From Pseudomonadota bacterium (GTDB lineage: Bacteria > Desulfobacterota > Desulfobulbia > Desulfobulbales > Desulfocapsaceae): a stretch of 64,000 bases of DNA. The notes under the pieces were generated by a model. That model saw nothing but the letters and a program-made list of their open reading frames with translations, did not search any database and was not told the DNA's origin. The position numbers and the translations under genes are program-made. Location of the stretch: the NCBI GenBank assembly GCA_018820855.1, contig JAHJNL010000022.1, forward strand, positions 62,001-126,000. Reading direction: 5' to 3'. Positions within the stretch are counted from its first letter, which is position 1. Each line of letters begins with the position of its first letter. Of this stretch, positions 24,935 to 38,038 are shown piece after piece.

Positions 24935-27190
24935 TCAGTGTTTATAGGTAAAACTCAGCTGTCCATCGCGCAGACCAACAGTCACCTTCCCCCCGGAAAC
25001 CAGTTGACCGAAAAGGATCTCATCGGTGAGCACATCGCCAATCTCCTTCATGATCAGCCTGCGCAGAGGCCTGGCACCGAAAGCAGGATCATACCCTTTT
25101 TGGGCCAGCCACGAACGGGCCTTGGCAGTGAGAGAGACTGAGACCTTTTTCTCAGCAAGCTGTGCCTGCAATTCTACTATCAGTTTCTCAACCACCTGCT
25201 CCACCGCACTTGGCTCAAGGGATGTGAACGAGATGATTGCATCCAGGCGATTACGGAACTCCGGCGAAAAGAGATTTTTCACCGCCTTCTGCTCCCGTCC
25301 CTTTTTCTCTGCTACAAAGCCGATGGGCGCACTGGACATCTCACGGGCACCGGCATTGGTGGTCATTATGATGATCACGTTGCGGAAATCTGCCTTCCTG
25401 CCGGAGTTATCGGTCAGAGTGGAATGATCCATGACCTGAAGAAGTATGGAAAAGATATCGGGATGGGCTTTTTCAATCTCATCAAGGAGAAGGACGCAGT
25501 AGGGATGCTTGCGAACGGCCTCAGTGAGCAGGCCACCCTGTTCAAAACCAATATAGCCGGGAGGAGCACCGATGAGACGGGCCACCGCATGTTTTTCCAT
25601 GTATTCACTCATATCAAAACGTTCGAAGTGAACGGAAAGCTTGCTTGCCAGCTGCCTGGCCACCTCGGTTTTGCCCACCCCGGTGGGTCCGGCAAAGAGG
25701 AAACTACCGGTGGGAGAATCAGGATTGCCGAGGCCTGCCCGCGATCGTTTCACAGCCGTGACCACTGCCTCAATGGCAGGATCCTGGCCAAAGATCACCT
25801 GCTTCATCAGAGTCGAAAGTTCTTTCAGGGAAACAAGATCCGCACGGGAACCGCTCTTGGCAGGAACCCTGGCCATGCGCGAAACCACATTCTCCACGTC
25901 TCGCACCTTGACGACCCTGTCAAGCTTACCAGTCATACGAAAGGCAGAACCCACTTCATCCATGACATCAATGGCCTTATCCGGGAGAAACCGATCATTG
26001 ATATAGCGTTCTGCAAGCTCAGCTGTTGCCCGGATAGCAGGCGCGGAATAGGTAACCCGATGATGATCTTCATAACGGGACTGTAAACCCTGAAGGATTC
26101 GCCTGGTATCTTCCACAGAAGGTTCTTCTACATCGATCTTCTGGAACCTGCGGGCCAGAGCCCGGTCTTTCTCAATATGGTTTTTATACTCTTCATAGGT
26201 AGTGGCACCGATACATCGCAGGGTTCCGGCTTGCAAGGCCGGTTTAAGCAGGTTGGAGGCATCCATGGAACCGCCACTGGTAGCACCTGCACCTACGATG
26301 GTATGCATTTCGTCGATAAAAAGGATAGCATTACCCTTACGTTCAACAGCTGCAATTACAGCCTTGAGCCGCTTCTCAAAATCACCTCGATACTTGGTTC
26401 CGGCGACCAGGGTGCCCATATCCAGAAGCAAAATCTCCTCGTCCTGGAGCAGGTCCGGGACCAGTGATTTTCCTTCTGCGGCCCGGGACTCCTTGTCGGC
26501 ATGAATCAGCAGAGCCAACCCCTCGACAATGGCGGTCTTGCCCACACCAGGTTCACCGACCAGCAAGGGATTATTCTTTTTCCGCCGACAGAGCACCTGC
26601 ATCATCCGATGCACTTCATTCTTCCGGCCAATCAACGGATCGAGATTGCCATCAGCGGCGCTTTTCGCATAGTTGACACAAAATTCATGAAGAATTTTTG
26701 CATCTTTGTCCGCATCCTTGTCCCCAGCAGGTCCGGCCGGCATATAGGGCAGCGGCTCCTTCTGTAAATCATCGGGCAGAGAGTGGGAGACAAACTCCAC
26801 CACTGACATACGCCCCAGCCCTTCAGATCCCAGAAAATAAACGGCATGGGACTCGGCCTCGGAAAAGATAGAAACCAGCACATCACCGCTGTCCACCTCT
26901 TTCTTGCCACAGCTTTGGACATGGGCTACAGCCCGCTGCAGGACACGGTTAAAGCCAACGGTCTGAGCAGGGTCTCCGGAAGGAATAGTCGGCAGTTCCC
27001 CGGCAAAAAAAGATTCCAGCCGCTTTTTCAAATTTTCGGCGGACCCTCCGCATTCCTTAATAATATACTCTGTCAGCTCGTCATGGAGCAGGCCGTAGAG
27101 CATATGCTCCACAGTCACATACTCATGATGATAGCTCTTTGCTTCTCGAATGGCCCTGACAAGGGCTATTTCCAATGATTTACTCAACAT
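24935..27190 (-). CDS. clpA: ATP-dependent Clp protease ATP-binding subunit ClpA
   Basis: A 751-residue Hsp100 unfoldase that feeds substrates to ClpP. The N-domain (about 1-150) carries the ClpS-docking fold ([17 protein letters not shown]). AAA1 has Walker A GEPGVGKT and the [20 protein letters not shown] motif. AAA2 has [28 protein letters not shown] and the C-terminal [12 protein letters not shown] block. The short middle region without a long coiled coil separates it from ClpB. ClpS is encoded 98 bp upstream, the usual arrangement; clpP is not in the window. The gap before it contains a GTTAATATTAAC palindrome. Confidence 0.97.
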
Positions 27191-27287: not shown

Positions 27288-27590
27288 TTATACCTGTTCA
27301 ATGGAACAACGCAGAGGATACTCACTCTGCCGTGCGAGTTCGTGAACAATGGCAACCTTTGTCTCACAGATCTCCCGGGTATAAATTCCGGCCACTCCGA
27401 CTCCCTCCTGATGCACGTTCATCATTATCTTACTCGCATCAGAGGTGTTCTTGCCAAAAACATTTTCCAGAATAGCAATTACAAATTCCATGGATGTATA
27501 ATCATCGTTATGCAGCAACACTTTGTACAGAGAAGGCTCTCGAACCTGAGTCCTGTCTCTGGTTGCCACCGATCCTTTTTTGTCACTCAT
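27288..27590 (-). CDS. clpS: ATP-dependent Clp protease adaptor ClpS
   Basis: A 100-residue N-recognin that binds the ClpA N-domain and delivers N-end-rule substrates. Signature: YKVLLHNDDYTSMEFVIAIL, where the Asn-Asp-Asp lines the pocket for the substrate N-terminus, then the conserved histidine in MMNVHQEGVGVAGIYTREI and ETKVAIVHELARQ. The N-terminal extension of about 15 residues is normal. It is directly upstream of clpA and downstream of holA on the same strand. Confidence 0.97.
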   Translation of the reverse strand: MSDKKGSVATRDRTQVREPSLYKVLLHNDDYTSMEFVIAILENVFGKNTSDASKIMMNVHQEGVGVAGIYTREICETKVAIVHELARQSEYPLRCSIEQV

Positions 27591-27731: not shown

Positions 27732-29096
27732 CTACACTTTGTTCCTTTTATCTGTCGCAAGCATGGTCAACAAAAGCTCTTCCAGTACCAGTTGCTGGGG
27801 CAGAGGAGCTCCCTTCAGGCGATATTCGGCCTGAAGCAGCAGTCCCAGCCACTTTTTCAACAGAGAGCAGGAGAAGCCCTGGGCCTTACTGAAACTCATG
27901 AACAGGGCGTAAGGATGGCCCGTCAGTAACTCTTTCCAGTCTCCGCGTTCTTTCAATGCTGGAAGGTAGCTGTCCTGGAACTGTTTGGCACTCATTCCCG
28001 GCTGCCAGTGGGGTTGCGGCTGAAGCTGCAGGGAACGGAAGATAAGCAGTCTGCGCAGATAGTTTCTCAGGGTTGCCAGGATGGCCAGACCATGAATACC
28101 GTTTTCCAGGAGCCGGTGCAAAAGGACCAACGTTCGCCCGGTCTGCTGTTTGCCGAAGGCATCGGTCAATTCAAACAACGCATCCTCCCGGGTTCTTCCC
28201 ACCATGGCATCAAGATCTTCCACGGTAATGAGTTCCCTGTCACCCACGGCCAATGCCAGCTTTTCCGTCTCCATAACCACTGCAACGGGATGGAAGCCCA
28301 CGCGCTCAAAGAGGAGGTCCAGTACCCGTGGTGCCATTTTTTTGCCGAATCTGCTCAGACTCTTCGTCACCAACTCCTGCAGGACGGCATTCTGTCCTTT
28401 CTGGGCGGCAGCTCCGGCTCCGGTGTCTATGGAACAGTCCACCACAACTCCCTCTTTTTTGATAAAGGCGAAGAACTGTTTCCGCTTATCAACGGCCTCG
28501 GCAGTGAGCAGCAGGATATTATGGGGAGGAACGCCTTTAGTAAAGGCATCCCTGTAGCGACCGGTTATGTCTCCAGCAGATAACACCTTTGGGGAGCCAG
28601 CAGCAGCCAGCAGTTCATCGGCCCAGGCCAGACTCTCTTTTGGCCGGGCAAAGCCGAAAATATTCTGCCACTGCCCCCCCTCCATTTCCTCAAGACCATC
28701 ATCCACGGGAATTCCGGCAAGAGCGACAAAGGCCAGCAGATGTCTGCGACACTGCGCCTCCTTCTTTTCCCCACGGGCCAGTTCCACCTTGTTCCAAAGG
28801 GCTGATGCTGTATTTTTTGAATGAAAGAGCCTGCTGTCTGTGACCCGATGGATCTGCAGGCCGGGCAGAAGGCTGAAATTCATGAGCTGCCCCAGGGTCT
28901 TGCTGCTGTCTTCCCTGTCTCCGTCTATGGAATTGACCGAACCGCCGGCAGGCAGTGCGAGCAAGGCCTTCTGCAGACTGTCAGCTGCCTCTCGGCAGAG
29001 ATAACGCTCTCCAAAAAAGAGGTACAGTTGACAACATTTTCCCTGCCCCACCTCCCGGAGAAGAGCAGGCAATTCTGAACGCTTAATCAAAGGCAT
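27732..29096 (-). CDS. holA: DNA polymerase III subunit delta
   Basis: A 454-residue clamp-loader subunit that opens the beta clamp. The N-terminal part shows the family LYLFFGERYLCREAADSL, LMNFSLLPGLQIHRVTDSR and ILLLTAEAVDKRKQFFAFI. The middle has VLDLLFERVGFHPVAVVMETEKLAL. The C-terminal collar has FELTDAFGKQQTGRTLVLLHRLLENG and ILATLRNYLRRLLI. At 454 residues it is longer than the E. coli protein (343) because of an insertion of about 60-100 residues around 80-170. I start at ATG 29094-29096 (MPLIKRSELPALLREVG); the longer frame to 29213 reads as the antisense-free tail of the upstream gene. The start overlaps that gene's end by 14 bp, suggesting coupling. Confidence 0.88.
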   Translation of the reverse strand: MPLIKRSELPALLREVGQGKCCQLYLFFGERYLCREAADSLQKALLALPAGGSVNSIDGDREDSSKTLGQLMNFSLLPGLQIHRVTDSRLFHSKNTASALWNKVELARGEKKEAQCRRHLLAFVALAGIPVDDGLEEMEGGQWQNIFGFARPKESLAWADELLAAAGSPKVLSAGDITGRYRDAFTKGVPPHNILLLTAEAVDKRKQFFAFIKKEGVVVDCSIDTGAGAAAQKGQNAVLQELVTKSLSRFGKKMAPRVLDLLFERVGFHPVAVVMETEKLALAVGDRELITVEDLDAMVGRTREDALFELTDAFGKQQTGRTLVLLHRLLENGIHGLAILATLRNYLRRLLIFRSLQLQPQPHWQPGMSAKQFQDSYLPALKERGDWKELLTGHPYALFMSFSKAQGFSCSLLKKWLGLLLQAEYRLKGAPLPQQLVLEELLLTMLATDKRNKV

Positions 29097-31524
29097 GATC
29101 GATTGTTTTCTGATCCATGATCTTGTGAAGAATCGCAGGCAGTGAGCCTGGCTGCAAATAATCCTCACCAAGTCCCTGCGTAAAAATTTGGGCAGAACGA
29201 CTGGCCACATCATCCCATGTCAGATCGCCCTTGGCTTCGGCCACAGCTTCAAAAAGGAACTCGTTATAGGGGTTATTGATGACGGCCTTTCCCGTGCCCA
29301 CGGTGGCCAGGATATCCACATTATTTTTAAAAGTAGTGGCCAGCTCGGAATAGGCTCGGATACCGCCGCAGGAGCCAAGGCTCATGAAGCGCTGTTTAGC
29401 AAGGAGATCCTGTTCGGTGACTGCACCGCTTTCCACAAGCTTGGAGATGGGCTCTATCAACTGTTCCTTACGCCAGTAGGAATGTCCGCGCTGGGCAAAC
29501 ATCTCATGCCCCCCTTTGAGAAACTGTTTCAACAGTTCCATCTGTACCGCTTCCCCCTGGAAGATAAAAACGGAATGGGAAATCTCAACACCATTGACGC
29601 TTTTCACCCAGTCAATAATCACCGGTTTTCTGCTCTGCAGGACAAATAAAGACCTCATGGTATTGCTCGGGGAGGTTGGAAAGTTACGGAGCAGGCTTGC
29701 AGCCTCTGCAGTGGCAGCCGAGTTGGCATGCAGATCAAAGCCGCGCGACAATCGCGGCTGGTATCCCTGCTTAACCAGAAAGGCGCAGTTGGAGAGGAAG
29801 GACTCCTTGCCGTCATCATCATTATGAAAGACAGAAAGGCTGGAAAGACGGCCATCTGCCTTCCACTCCGTAAAGGCGGTACGGGTATACAATTCCAGAG
29901 GTATGGCCCCGTAATCGAACATCATCAAATTAATCCGGGACTTATCCACGTCACCGACAAAGTCGGAATAATACTGTTGATAATACTGGAGAATAACCCG
30001 CAGCTGAGTGGTAAAGACAGTGTTCTCATCACGGATGGCTGTGAGCATCTTGCCAATGAGATAACTGCGGGTCTCCGGCTCGATATTCTCCAGCAATTTC
30101 ATAAAGGTGGCGGAAAAGAGAATCAGACTGTTTTCATCCTGAAAGGCGGAGGTCGTCACCAGGTCCAGAACCCTTTTCTGCTCCTCAGAATCTTCGGGAA
30201 AAAAGATTGACAGTTTTCCCCGCTGGGCCAGACTGATAATAAAATCAGAGACGTGATTATTCTCCGGATCAACGGCCAGAAGAAACTGGAGAAGATTGGA
30301 GTTAAAACGATCGTTAATGCGACTTTGCAGCACAGGTACTAAAACATCGCGGAAAGAAGAGTCGTAGAGTTCACTCCCCTTGGAGAGCAGAATATAGATA
30401 TTGGCACTGGTGGTATCATGGGCGGCCTGGACACGGGCCCGTCCTGTGGCCTCCCGCAGAGTTGCAATGGCTGCCCCTTTCTTTCCACTGTGCAGGGCCT
30501 GATAAAAAGACTTTCCGTATTGCTCCCGGACCTTCCCATCCAGGCGTTTCCAGATTCGATCCAGAAAGGAAGTCGAGTAGCTGCTGAGCACCCCGGAAGA
30601 GATTTCCTGCCCCCGAAGATCAGTAACTGAATGCAGATCATTGATCTTCCAGGTCAAATAATCGGAGGCTGCAGCAAAACCCTTGAGGAGAATGGCCTTG
30701 TCTGCCGCAGAAAACCTAAAAAACAGTTCCTCCTGCCCCTGTTGGGGCAAACTAAAATAATCTCTGAGCCAGGCAAGAGCGACCTCAGGAGCGACATCCT
30801 GCTTGAACAGTCCCCGTGCGTTCCACGCATCAGTATTCGGCAACCTGCGTATAAAAGCCATATTTTCTAAGGCATTATACGCGTTCATTTCAGGAACCTG
30901 GCAACACTGTTCCGTGGCCCACTGCTGCTTTTCACTCATTGCTTCCAGCATATCCATACCTTGGGCCACCCTCTCCTTACTCTGTCCGGGGAGTACGAGA
31001 AAGGCCTTCAGAGCCCAACCAGCCGGTTCGTCCATCCCTTCAATACGATCAACATAGTCCAGAAGATCGCGGGCAGTTATTACGTCGACGAACTCAAAGG
31101 CCGTCATCACCCTGCTCGCGCTATAGGTCAAGTTCTCCAGTTTTCCCAGGAACTGCCAGCTCATTTCGACATCAGCCCCCTCCAAGGTAACAAAATGCTC
31201 GAGGAGGAGTTGGTTAGTAAAGCTTATCTTCGCCGTGACCAATCTCTTTAGAGTATCAACTATCTCTTGGGCTGAAATGCACTCCAGCTGGACAAAGGAA
31301 CGCAAGGCACGCATATTGGTATAATTCAGGACCCTGATCAGATCTTTATTATAATTGAAGAGCTCTTCGTCTTGACACGCCACCTGACGAAAGGCCTCCA
31401 GGGTTTTATAATACCCTTTGTCAGAAGTTCCAGCTGTTGCGACAGGGGAGAAGATCCAGTACAGGAGGGGAACAAGGAAAAAAACACTAACTTTTTGAAG
31501 CAACAAACGGGTATCTCGTTTCAT
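29083..31524 (-). CDS. Large exported protein of unknown function with a possible His/Cys protease-like C-terminus
   Basis: An 813-residue protein I cannot name. The start at ATG 31522-31524 (GGAAAA upstream) gives a Sec signal, LLLQKVSVFFLVPLLYWIF followed by an ATAG cleavage region. The body (about 40-560) is helical and repeat-like, with many Leu-rich pairs such as LLEHFVTLEGADVEMSWQFL and no metal or nucleotide motif. The last ~190 residues form an alpha/beta-looking region: LFVLQSRKPVIIDWVKS, ISHSVFIFQGEAVQ, then FAQRGHSYWRKEQ with H681, and after 38 residues RFMSLGSCGGIRAYSEL with C719, then ILATVGTGKAVINNPYNEFLF. A small-residue-flanked histidine then a beta strand ending in a cysteine resembles clan CD peptidases. 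Translationally coupled to holA. Function is inference only. Confidence 0.75.
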   Translation of the reverse strand: MKRDTRLLLQKVSVFFLVPLLYWIFSPVATAGTSDKGYYKTLEAFRQVACQDEELFNYNKDLIRVLNYTNMRALRSFVQLECISAQEIVDTLKRLVTAKISFTNQLLLEHFVTLEGADVEMSWQFLGKLENLTYSASRVMTAFEFVDVITARDLLDYVDRIEGMDEPAGWALKAFLVLPGQSKERVAQGMDMLEAMSEKQQWATEQCCQVPEMNAYNALENMAFIRRLPNTDAWNARGLFKQDVAPEVALAWLRDYFSLPQQGQEELFFRFSAADKAILLKGFAAASDYLTWKINDLHSVTDLRGQEISSGVLSSYSTSFLDRIWKRLDGKVREQYGKSFYQALHSGKKGAAIATLREATGRARVQAAHDTTSANIYILLSKGSELYDSSFRDVLVPVLQSRINDRFNSNLLQFLLAVDPENNHVSDFIISLAQRGKLSIFFPEDSEEQKRVLDLVTTSAFQDENSLILFSATFMKLLENIEPETRSYLIGKMLTAIRDENTVFTTQLRVILQYYQQYYSDFVGDVDKSRINLMMFDYGAIPLELYTRTAFTEWKADGRLSSLSVFHNDDDGKESFLSNCAFLVKQGYQPRLSRGFDLHANSAATAEAASLLRNFPTSPSNTMRSLFVLQSRKPVIIDWVKSVNGVEISHSVFIFQGEAVQMELLKQFLKGGHEMFAQRGHSYWRKEQLIEPISKLVESGAVTEQDLLAKQRFMSLGSCGGIRAYSELATTFKNNVDILATVGTGKAVINNPYNEFLFEAVAEAKGDLTWDDVASRSAQIFTQGLGEDYLQPGSLPAILHKIMDQKTIDHAFD

Positions 31525-31830: not shown

Positions 31831-32739
31831 ATGAAAGAACACCACTCCCAATTTCTCCCAGCTCTCTGTCTGGTGCTGGCCATGTTTCTCTGGGCGAGTT
31901 CCTTCATTGCTCTCAAGGTGGCCTTCCTCGATTACCATCCCATGGTGGTAATATTCGGCAGGATGGCAGTGGCATCTCTTGCCTTTCTCTTTTTCCTGCC
32001 CCGATTCCGCAACATCCGTATCCGCAGACGAGACTGGAAGTTGCTTGGCCTTATGGCTCTCAGTGAACCCTGTTTATACTTCATTTTCGAGGCCCATGCC
32101 CTGAAAAACACCTCGGCCTCGCAGGCCTCGGTAATCACCACCATGCTTCCCCTTTTGATTTCCGTGGCCTCAGCTCTCTTTCTCGCCGAAAAATTTTCTC
32201 TCCAGAACCTGCTCGGTCTCTTTCTGGCCATGGCAGGCGGTATTACACTCAGTCTGGGCGGAACAGCCACAGAACATTCCCCGGCCCCCCTTCTTGGAAA
32301 TTTTTACGAATTCCTGGCCATGGTCTGCGCCACTGTCTATACAATCTCGGTCAAGCGCTTGACATCCCGCTACCCGGCACTCTTTCTTACCGCAGTACAG
32401 GCCTGGGTGGGAGCCGTTTTTTTCGGTCCCTTTCTGTTCTTTCCCCAGGTACCCCTGCCCGAATCCCTGCTCCTCCTCCCCACCACCGCCATCATCTATC
32501 TGGGCCTGGCCGTCACCATTTTGGCATACGGATCCTACAACTTTGCCCTCTCCTCCATGGATGCAGGCAAGGCATCCATCTATGTCAACCTTATCCCCCT
32601 CTTTACCATGTTACTCGGATGGCTGATCTTCCGGGAATCCTTTACCCCATTTCAATACCTTGCCGGACTGCTGATCTTCTTCGGTGTGGGACTGAGTCAG
32701 AGCTTCTGGGGATTGGGATCAAAAAAGATGCAAGGATGA
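31831..32739 (+). CDS. EamA/DMT-family transporter
   Basis: A 302-residue inner-membrane protein with ten hydrophobic helices in two EamA repeats: ALCLVLAMFLWASSFIALKV opens the first, and NFYEFLAMVCATVYTISVKR opens the second. Conserved features include SEPCLYFIFEAHALKNTSAS at the end of the first repeat and FALSSMDAGKASIYVNLIPL near the end of the second. Such carriers export amino acids or other metabolites; the substrate cannot be read from sequence. It stands alone, in front of a rubrerythrin-like gene. No good ribosome site precedes the ATG. Confidence 0.9.
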   Translation: MKEHHSQFLPALCLVLAMFLWASSFIALKVAFLDYHPMVVIFGRMAVASLAFLFFLPRFRNIRIRRRDWKLLGLMALSEPCLYFIFEAHALKNTSASQASVITTMLPLLISVASALFLAEKFSLQNLLGLFLAMAGGITLSLGGTATEHSPAPLLGNFYEFLAMVCATVYTISVKRLTSRYPALFLTAVQAWVGAVFFGPFLFFPQVPLPESLLLLPTTAIIYLGLAVTILAYGSYNFALSSMDAGKASIYVNLIPLFTMLLGWLIFRESFTPFQYLAGLLIFFGVGLSQSFWGLGSKKMQG

Positions 32740-35519: not shown

Positions 35520-36320
35520 TCAGGATTTTTCCGACGGCATGGGAGGGCTTGGTACGTCATTGTGACATTCACCACAGTTGTATTGACCGGTAATGCCATG
35601 CTCTTTGACCGCCGAGAAAGTCGCAGTCGGTTCATACTTACCGTCCTTCCAGTCATTGAGCAACTCCACCACCCGGTAAGCGGTGCTTGCCGCAACCCTG
35701 GCACAACGGTCCTTTCTTTCAGCACTCTTCAAAGGGTGACCTGAGGCCTCCATCCACTTCCCGACGGACACATGGCAGAGGGGAGAGTCACTGGTGGTGG
35801 TGACAATCTTGTCGATGGCAATGCGTGGTTTTGCCGGCTTGAAGATAGGCATCTTGGCCTCAGAATACCACTGCATGATGTCATTGGCGATTTGATGCCC
35901 CTCAGGAGAACCTGCGATTCGAGGACCGATAATCAGATTGGCAACAATATTCGCGCCGGCTGGCGAACCACAGACTGTACCCCAGCCAACCATGCCGCCT
36001 TCCAGAAAGACAAAGGCATCGGACGGGAATGAAGTATAAGGCTCTCCGACTTTTTCTCCCAACTGACTGAAGACGGAGTTGATTACCGCACAACCGCAAA
36101 ATACCCTGTACCACTCCTCGTAACAGATCTCAGCGGTCTTCACCGGGTCGAGTTTTTCATAGGGCCATGGCCACTTTTCGTTCGTCGAACCTTTGGCCTG
36201 AGCAGACTTCAACATCCCCCCCAACTGCGTCAGGGCAGTACCTGCGGCAAGAACTCCTGCGGTACCAATCATCATCTGACGGCGGGACAGGCTATGACAG
36301 ATTTTGTCCGGTTTCTCCAT
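35520..36320 (-). CDS. Split-Soret cytochrome c, Tat-exported
   Basis: A 266-residue periplasmic cytochrome. The N-terminus has a twin-arginine signal (SRRQMMIGTAGVLAAG). The mature part begins with a C_GCAxxI_C_C-type cysteine domain: FCGCAVINSVFSQLGE and GWGTVCGSPAGANIVAN. The C-terminal part has one canonical heme site, YNCGECHND (CxxCH), and a second SDSPLCHVSVGKWM with only the Cys-His half, as in the split-Soret family described from Desulfovibrio desulfuricans. The start at ATG 36318-36320 has a perfect GGAGGAAAG. It is transcribed away from the RegB-like kinase gene (258-bp spacer) and ends in a strong terminator. Its redox role is unknown; nitrate/nitrite or oxygen stress functions have been suggested for the family. 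Confidence 0.88.
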   Translation of the reverse strand: MEKPDKICHSLSRRQMMIGTAGVLAAGTALTQLGGMLKSAQAKGSTNEKWPWPYEKLDPVKTAEICYEEWYRVFCGCAVINSVFSQLGEKVGEPYTSFPSDAFVFLEGGMVGWGTVCGSPAGANIVANLIIGPRIAGSPEGHQIANDIMQWYSEAKMPIFKPAKPRIAIDKIVTTTSDSPLCHVSVGKWMEASGHPLKSAERKDRCARVAASTAYRVVELLNDWKDGKYEPTATFSAVKEHGITGQYNCGECHNDVPSPPMPSEKS

Positions 36321-36577
36321 AATGTCTTTCCTCCACATGCTGGTTTTACGATTATTGGCCGATACCAACTCATTGGGCTCAGCCGGCTGCAAGAACACCT
36401 CGTTAACAAATAAAAGCTAACCGAAAGAAACAAACACCACAATGTGGCATATTGTCGCATCTCCTGAAAAATATTGTGAAAAATACTTATTCCCTCTCAC
36501 GGCAAAACGATAAGACGTAGATTTTCTTTTACTTTCCTGATAAGAAAGCCTAAAGTGTACGTCATTATGATACAGTA

Positions 36578-38038
36578 ATGAGAGATGCGGACTGCCGCTC
36601 CCATCTGCAAAGAGCGGTGACAGTCTTGCCCGGTTTTTCACGGCCTCCAGGCCTCCTGCCCCTGGTCAAGGGCTACTTCTGGTGCCCCATGCTTTTTCCC
36701 AATTTCACATGCTTCATCCGCAGCCCTCAAAAAGAACAGGTCGACGTGACCCTTCCCTGGCTGCTGGCCCTGCGCTGGGGCGAGGTGTTCTGTCAGATCA
36801 TTCTCATTGTCGCGGTGTGGCTGGTGATGGATATCGAAATCCCCCTCCTGCCGGTCTCCGCTATTATCCTCTTTGAGGGAGCCAGCAACGTCTACCTGCA
36901 TATTCGGCACGAACTCAACGCCCCTGTCTCCAACCGGATGATTTTAATCATCCTCCTGATGGATAGCGTTTTCCTCACCGGGCTTCTCTATATCACCGGT
37001 GCTGCCATGAACCCCTTTGTCTTTCTTTACCTGATCCATATTGTCACCGGAGCTATCATCCTTCCGGAGAAGTGTTCCTGGCTGATCACCGCCACCACCC
37101 TGGCCTGCTACAGCCTGCTCTTCTACTTTCCGCCATCTTTCATTTCCGCTCTTTCCGAACCGCATTTCCCGAAAGATGCGACAGACCTGCAGCTGATCGA
37201 CAATCTCACCGATTCCATCCAACTGCACCTGAAGGGAATGGGCGGAGCCTTTTTCGTCACTTCAGTGTTCATAGTTTTTTTTGTCAGCAAAACCCAGAAA
37301 GCCCTCACCCAACATCGACTCAAAGTCCAGTCCCTGGAAAAAGAACGGGAACGCCACGAACGCTTGGCCTCCTTGGCCACCTTTGCTGCAGGAGCGGCCC
37401 ACGAACTTTCCACCCCTCTCAGCACAGTTGCCGTGGTCTCCTGCGAGATGATCCACGTCCTGAAAGAGCATGGCGAGAGCGGGGAACTCCTCGACGATGC
37501 CCGTCTGATCAGAAGACAGGTGGCAGACTGCAAAGAAATCCTCTACCAGATGGCTGCAGGGGCGGGCGAACATCTGGGCGAAGAGATCAGAGATTTTTCT
37601 ATCCAGCAGGCGGTGAACCAGATCCTTGAAGAGATCAAGGAGGAGGATCGCAGACGGCTCCGGGTAACCATAGAACCGAAAGACTTACAAATCACCATGC
37701 CGTTTCGTTCACTATGCCGGACAATCAAGGGACTGGTTAAAAACGGGCTTGAGGCCTCCTCGCCTCCCGAGCAAGTGACCATGCGCTGGTTTACGACACC
37801 TGAACATCTTGGGGTTGAGATACGAGATCCGGGAACAGGCATTGATGAAGAAATGGAGAGCCAGGTAACTGAACCATTTTTCACCACTAAGGATTCAGGA
37901 CTTGGCCTTGGCCTCTTTCTTGCAAAAAGTATGGCCGAGCAGTTTGGCGGCGGCCTCTCCATAGAACTGCAATCGGATCAGGGTACACGGGTAACGCTGA
38001 CCCTCGCCCTTGAGACAATCAGGAAAAAACTGCAATAA
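36578..38038 (+). CDS. RegB/PrrB-type redox sensor histidine kinase
   Basis: A 486-residue kinase (start uncertain). Six membrane helices span about 65-235 (ALRWGEVFCQIILIVAVWLV; MILIILLMDSVFLTGLLY; MNPFVFLYLIHIVTGAIIL). The phospho-acceptor box is AGAAHELSTPLSTVAVVS, the RegB form of HisKA. Just after it, RRQVADCKEILYQM carries a cysteine in the place of the redox-active cysteine of RegB. HATPase motifs are LVKNGLEASS, EIRDPGTGID and DSGLGLGLFLAKSMAEQFGG. It is followed 24 bp later by its RegA-like partner. Start: ATG 36578 lies only 6 bp after a TATGAT that looks like a -10 box, and has no ribosome site, so ATG 36689 (MLFPNFTCF) is a real alternative. Confidence 0.9.
   Translation: MRDADCRSHLQRAVTVLPGFSRPPGLLPLVKGYFWCPMLFPNFTCFIRSPQKEQVDVTLPWLLALRWGEVFCQIILIVAVWLVMDIEIPLLPVSAIILFEGASNVYLHIRHELNAPVSNRMILIILLMDSVFLTGLLYITGAAMNPFVFLYLIHIVTGAIILPEKCSWLITATTLACYSLLFYFPPSFISALSEPHFPKDATDLQLIDNLTDSIQLHLKGMGGAFFVTSVFIVFFVSKTQKALTQHRLKVQSLEKERERHERLASLATFAAGAAHELSTPLSTVAVVSCEMIHVLKEHGESGELLDDARLIRRQVADCKEILYQMAAGAGEHLGEEIRDFSIQQAVNQILEEIKEEDRRRLRVTIEPKDLQITMPFRSLCRTIKGLVKNGLEASSPPEQVTMRWFTTPEHLGVEIRDPGTGIDEEMESQVTEPFFTTKDSGLGLGLFLAKSMAEQFGGGLSIELQSDQGTRVTLTLALETIRKKLQ

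Follow-up and report, generated by a model that had tools for sequence, protein, structure and literature searches.

An exported protein family of the Desulfobulbales with an invariant histidine-cysteine pair that may work like a clan CD peptidase

Is an 813-residue protein encoded in a genome of the Desulfocapsaceae an undescribed exported enzyme and, if so, does it work like the peptidases of clan CD? Its gene lies at 29083..31524 on the minus strand of a stretch of 64,000 nucleotides (contig JAHJNL010000022.1, positions 62,001 to 126,000, of assembly GCA_018820855.1; this whole stretch is called the window here), and its 813 codons plus stop translate without an internal stop. An original prediction, made from the letters alone, had proposed an exported cysteine peptidase on the strength of a His/Cys pair resembling that of clan CD. 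The reading frame, the codons of H681 (29482-29484) and C719 (29368-29370), and the spacing of 38 residues between them were as that prediction gave them. The family is real and conserved and carries an export signal; to judge by the searches named below, it is undescribed. The protein is probably a His/Cys enzyme that works like those of clan CD, as distinct from a proven member of that clan.

The putative signal peptide occupies residues about 1-32 (31429..31524, minus strand), a hydrophobic stretch whose cleavage site was placed by eye. A crude hydropathy test, which required a mean above 1.8 across 12 residues, places a signal-like hydrophobic stretch ahead of the mature part in 53 of 54 homologues, and the remaining one scores 1.77. 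The export signal of the original prediction is supported. A lipobox-like pattern was present in 2 of the 54. Pfam, NCBIfam, PHROGs, PADLOC and the PDB sequences gave no usable match for the protein, in keeping with the claim that it is uncharacterized, and the literature, judged by titles and the starts of abstracts, yielded no description of its family. Thirteen Pfam families were each matched by one or two of 37 members; they are mutually unrelated, and we treated them as chance. A search of the protein's own genome matched only the protein itself.

We then assessed conservation in 54 full-length homologues and in a larger set of C-terminal domains, counted at 30 positions, in which 185 rows were reduced to 125 distinct domains by removing 60 that were identical or had too little coverage. 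Invariance of the pair had been set beforehand as a test, with loss of either residue among homologues as the refuting outcome; H681 and C719 were unchanged in all 125 distinct domains, and across the 185 rows both were kept in 180 and gapped in 5. Equally invariant (125/125) were D569, D571, S575, E674, R679, G680, S682, Y683, W684, S715, G717, G720, Y725, G743, G745, N750 and Y789. In the full-length homologues, C719 is the sole invariant cysteine, which makes a conserved disulfide unlikely, and the only invariant histidines are H681 and H298, the latter in the helical part. Invariant positions in these 54 sequences numbered 28 in residues 661-800 and 18 in residues 281-520, with none in residues 41-280. 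We take this pattern in the alignments to mean an exported enzyme whose active site is fixed and whose front part varies more.

The conservation is concentrated in short blocks, all encoded on the minus strand. The two that hold the pair are RGHSYW (residues 679-684, 29473..29490), with each of its six residues at 125/125, and SxGSCGG (residues 715-721, 29362..29382), where S715, G717, C719 and G720 are invariant, S718 is kept in 117 domains (Ala in 8) and G721 in 123 (Ala in 2). Between the first strand and the first helix of the domain lies DDDG (residues 569-572, 29809..29820; D569 and D571 125/125, D570 and G572 124), proposed here as an acidic S1-type pocket. Past the cysteine comes GxGxxxxNxxY (residues 743-753, 29266..29298), in which G743, G745 and N750 are invariant and Y753 is kept in 124 domains (Phe in 1); we propose that it may serve as an L5-type loop. 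A last block, DYLQPG (residues 788-793, 29146..29163), has Y789 in 125, P792 in 124 and G793 in 123 domains.

The protein's architecture was examined in two AlphaFold2 (AF2) models, made from 14 and 13 sequences that all belong to a single genus, with mean predicted local distance difference test (pLDDT) values of 65.3 and 76.3. In the full-length model, residues about 38-538 (29911..31413, minus strand) form a solenoid-like region that is nearly all helix, apart from two isolated bridge residues, and the long helical region of the original prediction is borne out in this respect; 10-residue blocks have pLDDT values of 76-96 up to about residue 289 and lower, uneven values beyond. Residues about 559-808 (29101..29850, minus strand) are delimited by the models and by conservation as a C-terminal alpha/beta domain. 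Its predicted elements run from strand 559-566 through DDDG, a helix, strand 589-592, two helices, a beta-hairpin (637-643/646-654; residues 637-654, 29563..29616, minus strand) and another helix to strand 674-677, RGHSYW, helices, strand 712-716, SCGG, a helix and strand 736-740. The hydrophobic stretches thought to form strands before the histidine and the cysteine are indeed predicted as strands, ending four residues before H681 and three before C719, but pLDDT is about 50 around both residues in both models. The proposal that GTGKAVINNPYNEF forms the next strand does not hold in the models, where that strand is 736-740 and GTGKAVINNPYNEF makes the loop after it and the start of the following helix.

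How far does this arrangement resemble clan CD? According to one review, the core of the clan has strands in the order 2-1-3-4 with helices 1-3; the His lies where strand 3 ends and the Cys where strand 4 ends. Specificity is assigned there to residues in helix 1 (or loop 1) and in loops 4 and 5, the last of which carries a conserved aromatic residue (PMC4357240). PmC11 inserts two further strands after strand 2 and ahead of the His strand, and its authors call the topology of C80 identical (PMC4357240, PMC4850288). The order predicted for our protein, b1-a-b2-a-a-hairpin-a-bHis-a-bCys-a-b, follows that of PmC11, while the 2-1-3-4 order of the core sheet is not readable from the outputs. In the models, the hairpin at the place of the two added PmC11 strands, the glycine beside the histidine, the acids at helix 1, and N750 and Y753 on the would-be loop 5 appear to match clan CD in order, as opposed to superposed structure.

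Several results weigh against the clan CD reading, beginning with the missing library match and the low pLDDT values at the pair. Four fold searches were run with Foldseek and VIA-align, with 50 matches listed for each. Among these matches none was named as a clan CD peptidase, and the highest Z score was 7.8, with none at or above 8; this outcome decides little, since the models are weak at the active site and rest on those 14 and 13 sequences. The alpha/beta part matched mostly small GTPases among the matches listed (Z up to 6.4 and 7.1; 126-162 aligned residues). Other best matches listed were complexes of G protein-coupled receptors with G proteins, a designed protein and helical repeat proteins, as well as 2p62, a hypothetical protein from Pyrococcus that aligned along 122 residues with a Z of 7.2.

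Profiles were compared with hhalign. The comparison covered C14 (23 rows), C25 (7 rows), CHAT (22 rows) and C11 (10 rows), with C13, C50, C80, C84 and C123 outside the comparison, and used Arf (19 rows) and GATase (18 rows) as control alignments; all clan CD alignments were drawn from the same phylum. The probability for the family was below 1 against C14, C25 and CHAT, and the observed scores were reached by 6, 17, 15 and 16 of 25 block-shuffled family profiles for C14, C25, CHAT and C11, respectively, compared with 7 for Arf and 12 for GATase. Positive controls were recovered (C14-CHAT, 97.1; C25-CHAT, 94.6; C14-C25, 82.1), and any kinship with C14, C25 and CHAT must therefore be remote. The probability against C11 was 0.2, which says little, because C14, C25 and CHAT do not recognize C11 either (3.9, 0.2 and 0.2). 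Matches to three of these clan CD families are also encoded in the same genome: a C25 match in a 1,487-residue frame, in two pieces (G000:C84:35001-36605, L147), a CHAT match (G000:C101:18888-19817, L171) and a C11 match lacking HG in the 297 residues read (G000:C13:70331-71041, L189).

Coevolution gave a mixed picture. It was computed on 125 sequences (effective number, 69.5) with our own pseudolikelihood script and improvised regularization, and in 5 of 21 strand pairs the top-3 score was matched by fewer than 5% of random segments. Two of these pairs fit a C11-like sheet (strand 1 with the His strand, 0.022; strands 2 and 3, 0.025), and three do not (strands 2 and 4, 0.037; strands 2 and 7, 0.039; His strand and strand 7, 0.029). 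The score of the His strand with the Cys strand was not raised (0.262). The resemblance to clan CD claimed originally thus stands in part: the order of elements is compatible and the pair is invariant, but the profiles score at the level of shuffled controls, and the histidine sits in Gly-His-Ser, not His-Gly.

On balance, we give about an even chance to the reading that this is an exported enzyme made of a helical solenoid and a C-terminal alpha/beta domain whose H681/C719 dyad works like that of the clan CD peptidases. Such a protein would be periplasmic or secreted, and its solenoid would bind a partner or the substrate. H681 would activate C719 as the nucleophile; the substrate pocket might be shaped by the DDDG that follows strand 1 and by the N750/Y753 loop, and acids at that place would favor a basic residue at P1. 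The substrate could be an envelope protein or peptide, a suggestion made because elongasome and L,D-transpeptidase genes are neighbors in some clades.

These neighbors were surveyed at 59 loci from 58 genomes (G106 twice). In the window, the family gene is followed on the same strand by a holA-like gene (DNA polymerase III delta; 27732..29096, minus strand; Pfam PF21694, E 1.2e-9; start codon chosen by eye), clpS (27288..27590, minus strand; PF02617, E 1.1e-34) and a clpA-like gene (24935..27190, minus strand; AAA_2, E 2.9e-63, ClpB_D2-small, Clp_N). The coupling to holA that had been predicted is seen as an overlap of 14 bases between the end of the family gene and the start of holA, if holA starts at 29096. 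Upstream and divergent is an EamA transporter gene (31831..32739, plus strand; PF00892, E 5e-47), and a divergent EamA match was found in 18 of 58 genomes. Elsewhere in the window, by eye, a frame at 35520-36398 (minus strand) has a twin-arginine-like start and several cysteines, and a sensor kinase-like frame (36578-38038, plus strand) is divergent to it.

Across the survey, holA was directly downstream at 40 loci (39/58 genomes), with clpS and clpA next except at one locus where the contig stops, and holA was also next in 7 of 7 further Desulfocapsa-type loci. The remaining 19 of 58 genomes had other neighbors, sorted by clade. The holA-clpS-clpA linkage is therefore common to two families of the order and dispensable. 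The clpS and clpA genes do lie downstream, as the original prediction had it, but the link to proteolysis implied there is weakened: Clp is a cytoplasmic system, whereas the protein has an export signal, and neighbors differ in those 19 genomes. We rejected the link to clpS-clpA as evidence of function, since neighbors change by clade, and their adjacency in the window gives no reason to connect the protein with Clp proteolysis.

Envelope genes occur in three of the four neighborhood settings. All three genomes examined of genus g54 (G110, G156 and G154) carry mreC-mreD-PBP2-rodA immediately upstream of the family gene and in its orientation, with mreB as well in G154; at L109, MreB, PBP and RodA have Pfam support, whereas MreC, MreD, PilZ, Dus and MFS were named by eye. 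Genus g55, in which 6 of 8 genomes with a match were examined, has an outer-membrane beta-barrel gene upstream in 6/6 and a convergent GH3 gene in 3/6. In family f3 (10 of 13 genomes with a match examined), a convergent gene for YkuD, an L,D-transpeptidase, adjoins in 9/10, with Pfam support at L101 and L102. These neighbors hint at a role in the cell envelope but are suggestive only, each setting being one clade and two of them having convergent genes. Downstream of the family gene in G154, a gene at L109:4199-6241 (minus strand) encodes a trypsin-like domain (Trypsin_2, E 1.7e-16) with an export-signal-like start by eye.

A bolder version of the clan CD reading, which we hold to be doubtful as a whole, is that the protein represents a new clan CD enzyme family of separase-like plan, exported and acting in envelope growth or repair in the Desulfobulbales; the role in growth or repair is suggested because the gene is placed behind mreC-mreD-PBP2-rodA in one genus. 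The same neighbors could instead belong with a cell-wall cysteine enzyme (an amidase, a transpeptidase or an enzyme of cross-link editing) that has another Rossmann-like fold, uses the same nucleophile, acts on peptidoglycan and lies outside clan CD. Such an enzyme would suit the elongasome genes that immediately precede the family gene on its own strand, the adjoining YkuD and GH3 genes and the lack of a sequence link to clan CD in the profile comparison. We nonetheless consider it unlikely, given that holA is the next gene downstream in most genomes surveyed, that YkuD and GH3 are convergent and so not on one transcript, and that each setting is one clade, which leaves few independent events.

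The other main alternative, equally improbable, is an exported binding protein without catalysis, in which Asp, His and Cys bind a metal or a ligand. DDDG, H681, C719 and N750 could form a metal site, and H650 is kept in 117 of 125 domains; the invariance, however, spans RGHSYW, SxGSCGG and GxGxxxxNxxY, blocks that would together look like a catalytic pocket. An enzyme like the alpha/beta hydrolases or the class I amidotransferases, with G-x-C719-x-G as nucleophile elbow and a histidine downstream, seems very unlikely: LGSCGG does read G-x-C-x-G between a predicted strand and a helix, but there is no invariant histidine past C719 (H800 is best with 49/54, all others falling below half of the 54), and the GATase score is within the shuffled controls (12/25) in a comparison that did not cover alpha/beta hydrolases. 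GTP is not expected outside the cytoplasm, and a GTPase-like or HAD-like domain with an incidental Cys/His pair is hardly credible for a protein with an export signal: small GTPases are most of the best fold matches listed for the alpha/beta part and DxDG after strand 1 resembles HAD motif I, but the lysine of the P-loop GxxxxGK[ST] is not kept (position 573 is mostly Arg, else Lys, Ser, Tyr, Glu or His in alignment A3), the Arf score lies within the shuffled controls (7/25; HAD was not covered by that comparison), and conservation peaks in the His and Cys blocks.

Where does the family occur? Counting the source genome itself, an initial set of 36 related genomes had it in 24, and a sample of 193 from the order had it in 93; the C-terminal domain profile placed it in 135 of 257 genomes of the Desulfobulbales, spread over 29 of 69 genera. 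A phylum-wide sample of 395 genomes, searched with at most 6 candidates scored per genome, had 12 with a match, all of the same order. Fourteen named loci with a match were titled Desulfocapsa, Desulfobulbaceae, Deltaproteobacteria or broader; Desulfocapsa itself belongs to the Desulfobulbales, family Desulfocapsaceae. In a tree of the 54 full-length proteins, families f3 (5 rows) and f12 (12 rows) each stay together, and the two jointly are separated from the 37 f1 rows with a support of 0.995. The data therefore fit vertical descent with losses. A plasmid search gave no match to the family, and among viral contigs three stretches met a pattern with none coding a relative, the phages collection and metagenomes being outside that search.

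Some copies look irregular. The matches at L042 (G129:C67) and G624:C219 have one in-frame stop each (TAG and TGA, respectively) and are perhaps pseudogenes or assembly errors. In a close relative (L022/L026, G001:C215:587-2653), a single frame of 708 residues aligns with residues 12-503 and 649-812, leaving the segment in the middle unmatched.

The protein merits further study: it carries an export signal, is present in half of an order, keeps a fixed His/Cys pair and has no usable library match. A single structure would settle whether clan CD has a further family, marked by GHS as a new His motif, and the neighboring elongasome and L,D-transpeptidase genes point to a place of action that can be tested.

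Finally, we compared the protein with known systems. As in clan CD, its His comes before its Cys, both are invariant, and each is predicted just past a strand; it also has acids after strand 1 and a glycine at Cys+2 (123/125). A glycine adjacent to the catalytic His is described as structurally conserved across all clan CD families in section 17 of one review (PMC4357240), and as lying before that His in the part of another paper that deals with the clan (PMC12445089). Our protein has G680 beside H681 in 125 of 125 domains, although it carries Gly-His-Ser (125/125) in place of the usual His-Gly.

A hairpin also separates strand 2 from the His strand in the C11 peptidases (clostripain, PmC11), as predicted for our protein; clostripain is described as secreted, to which the export signal here corresponds. 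The His-Cys spacing is 38 residues, compared with 46 in PmC11 (His133/Cys179; PMC4850288). However, the C11 pattern His-Gly-(X)n-Ala-Cys is absent: the family has His-Ser in 125/125 domains, with Ser-Cys in 117 and Ala-Cys in 8. PmC11 has Asp177 two residues before its Cys, a position held by G717 (125/125) in our protein; we did not file the protein as C11 because the His-Gly and Asp-x-Cys of C11 are lacking. The helical regions also differ, being N-terminal and of about 500 residues in our protein and a C-terminal bundle in C11.

In general plan, the protein recalls separase (C50) and TPR-CHAT (Csx29), which are described as combining a large region of repeats with a His/Cys domain at the C-terminus. 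The repeat regions of both are helical. Both act inside the cell, whereas our protein carries an export signal, and C50 is likened here by description, not by profile. Another system to compare is YabG, a His-Cys protease that reviewers placed in clan CD despite a lack of sequence homology to other members; in the part of that source on Clostridioides difficile YabG, the residues are His161, Asp162 and Cys207, leaving no Gly right after the His, although another sentence there words the Gly differently (PMC12445089). YabG is a sporulation protease of spore formers and is likened by description, not by sequence, but our protein, too, has a His and a Cys and no profile link to the clan CD families compared.

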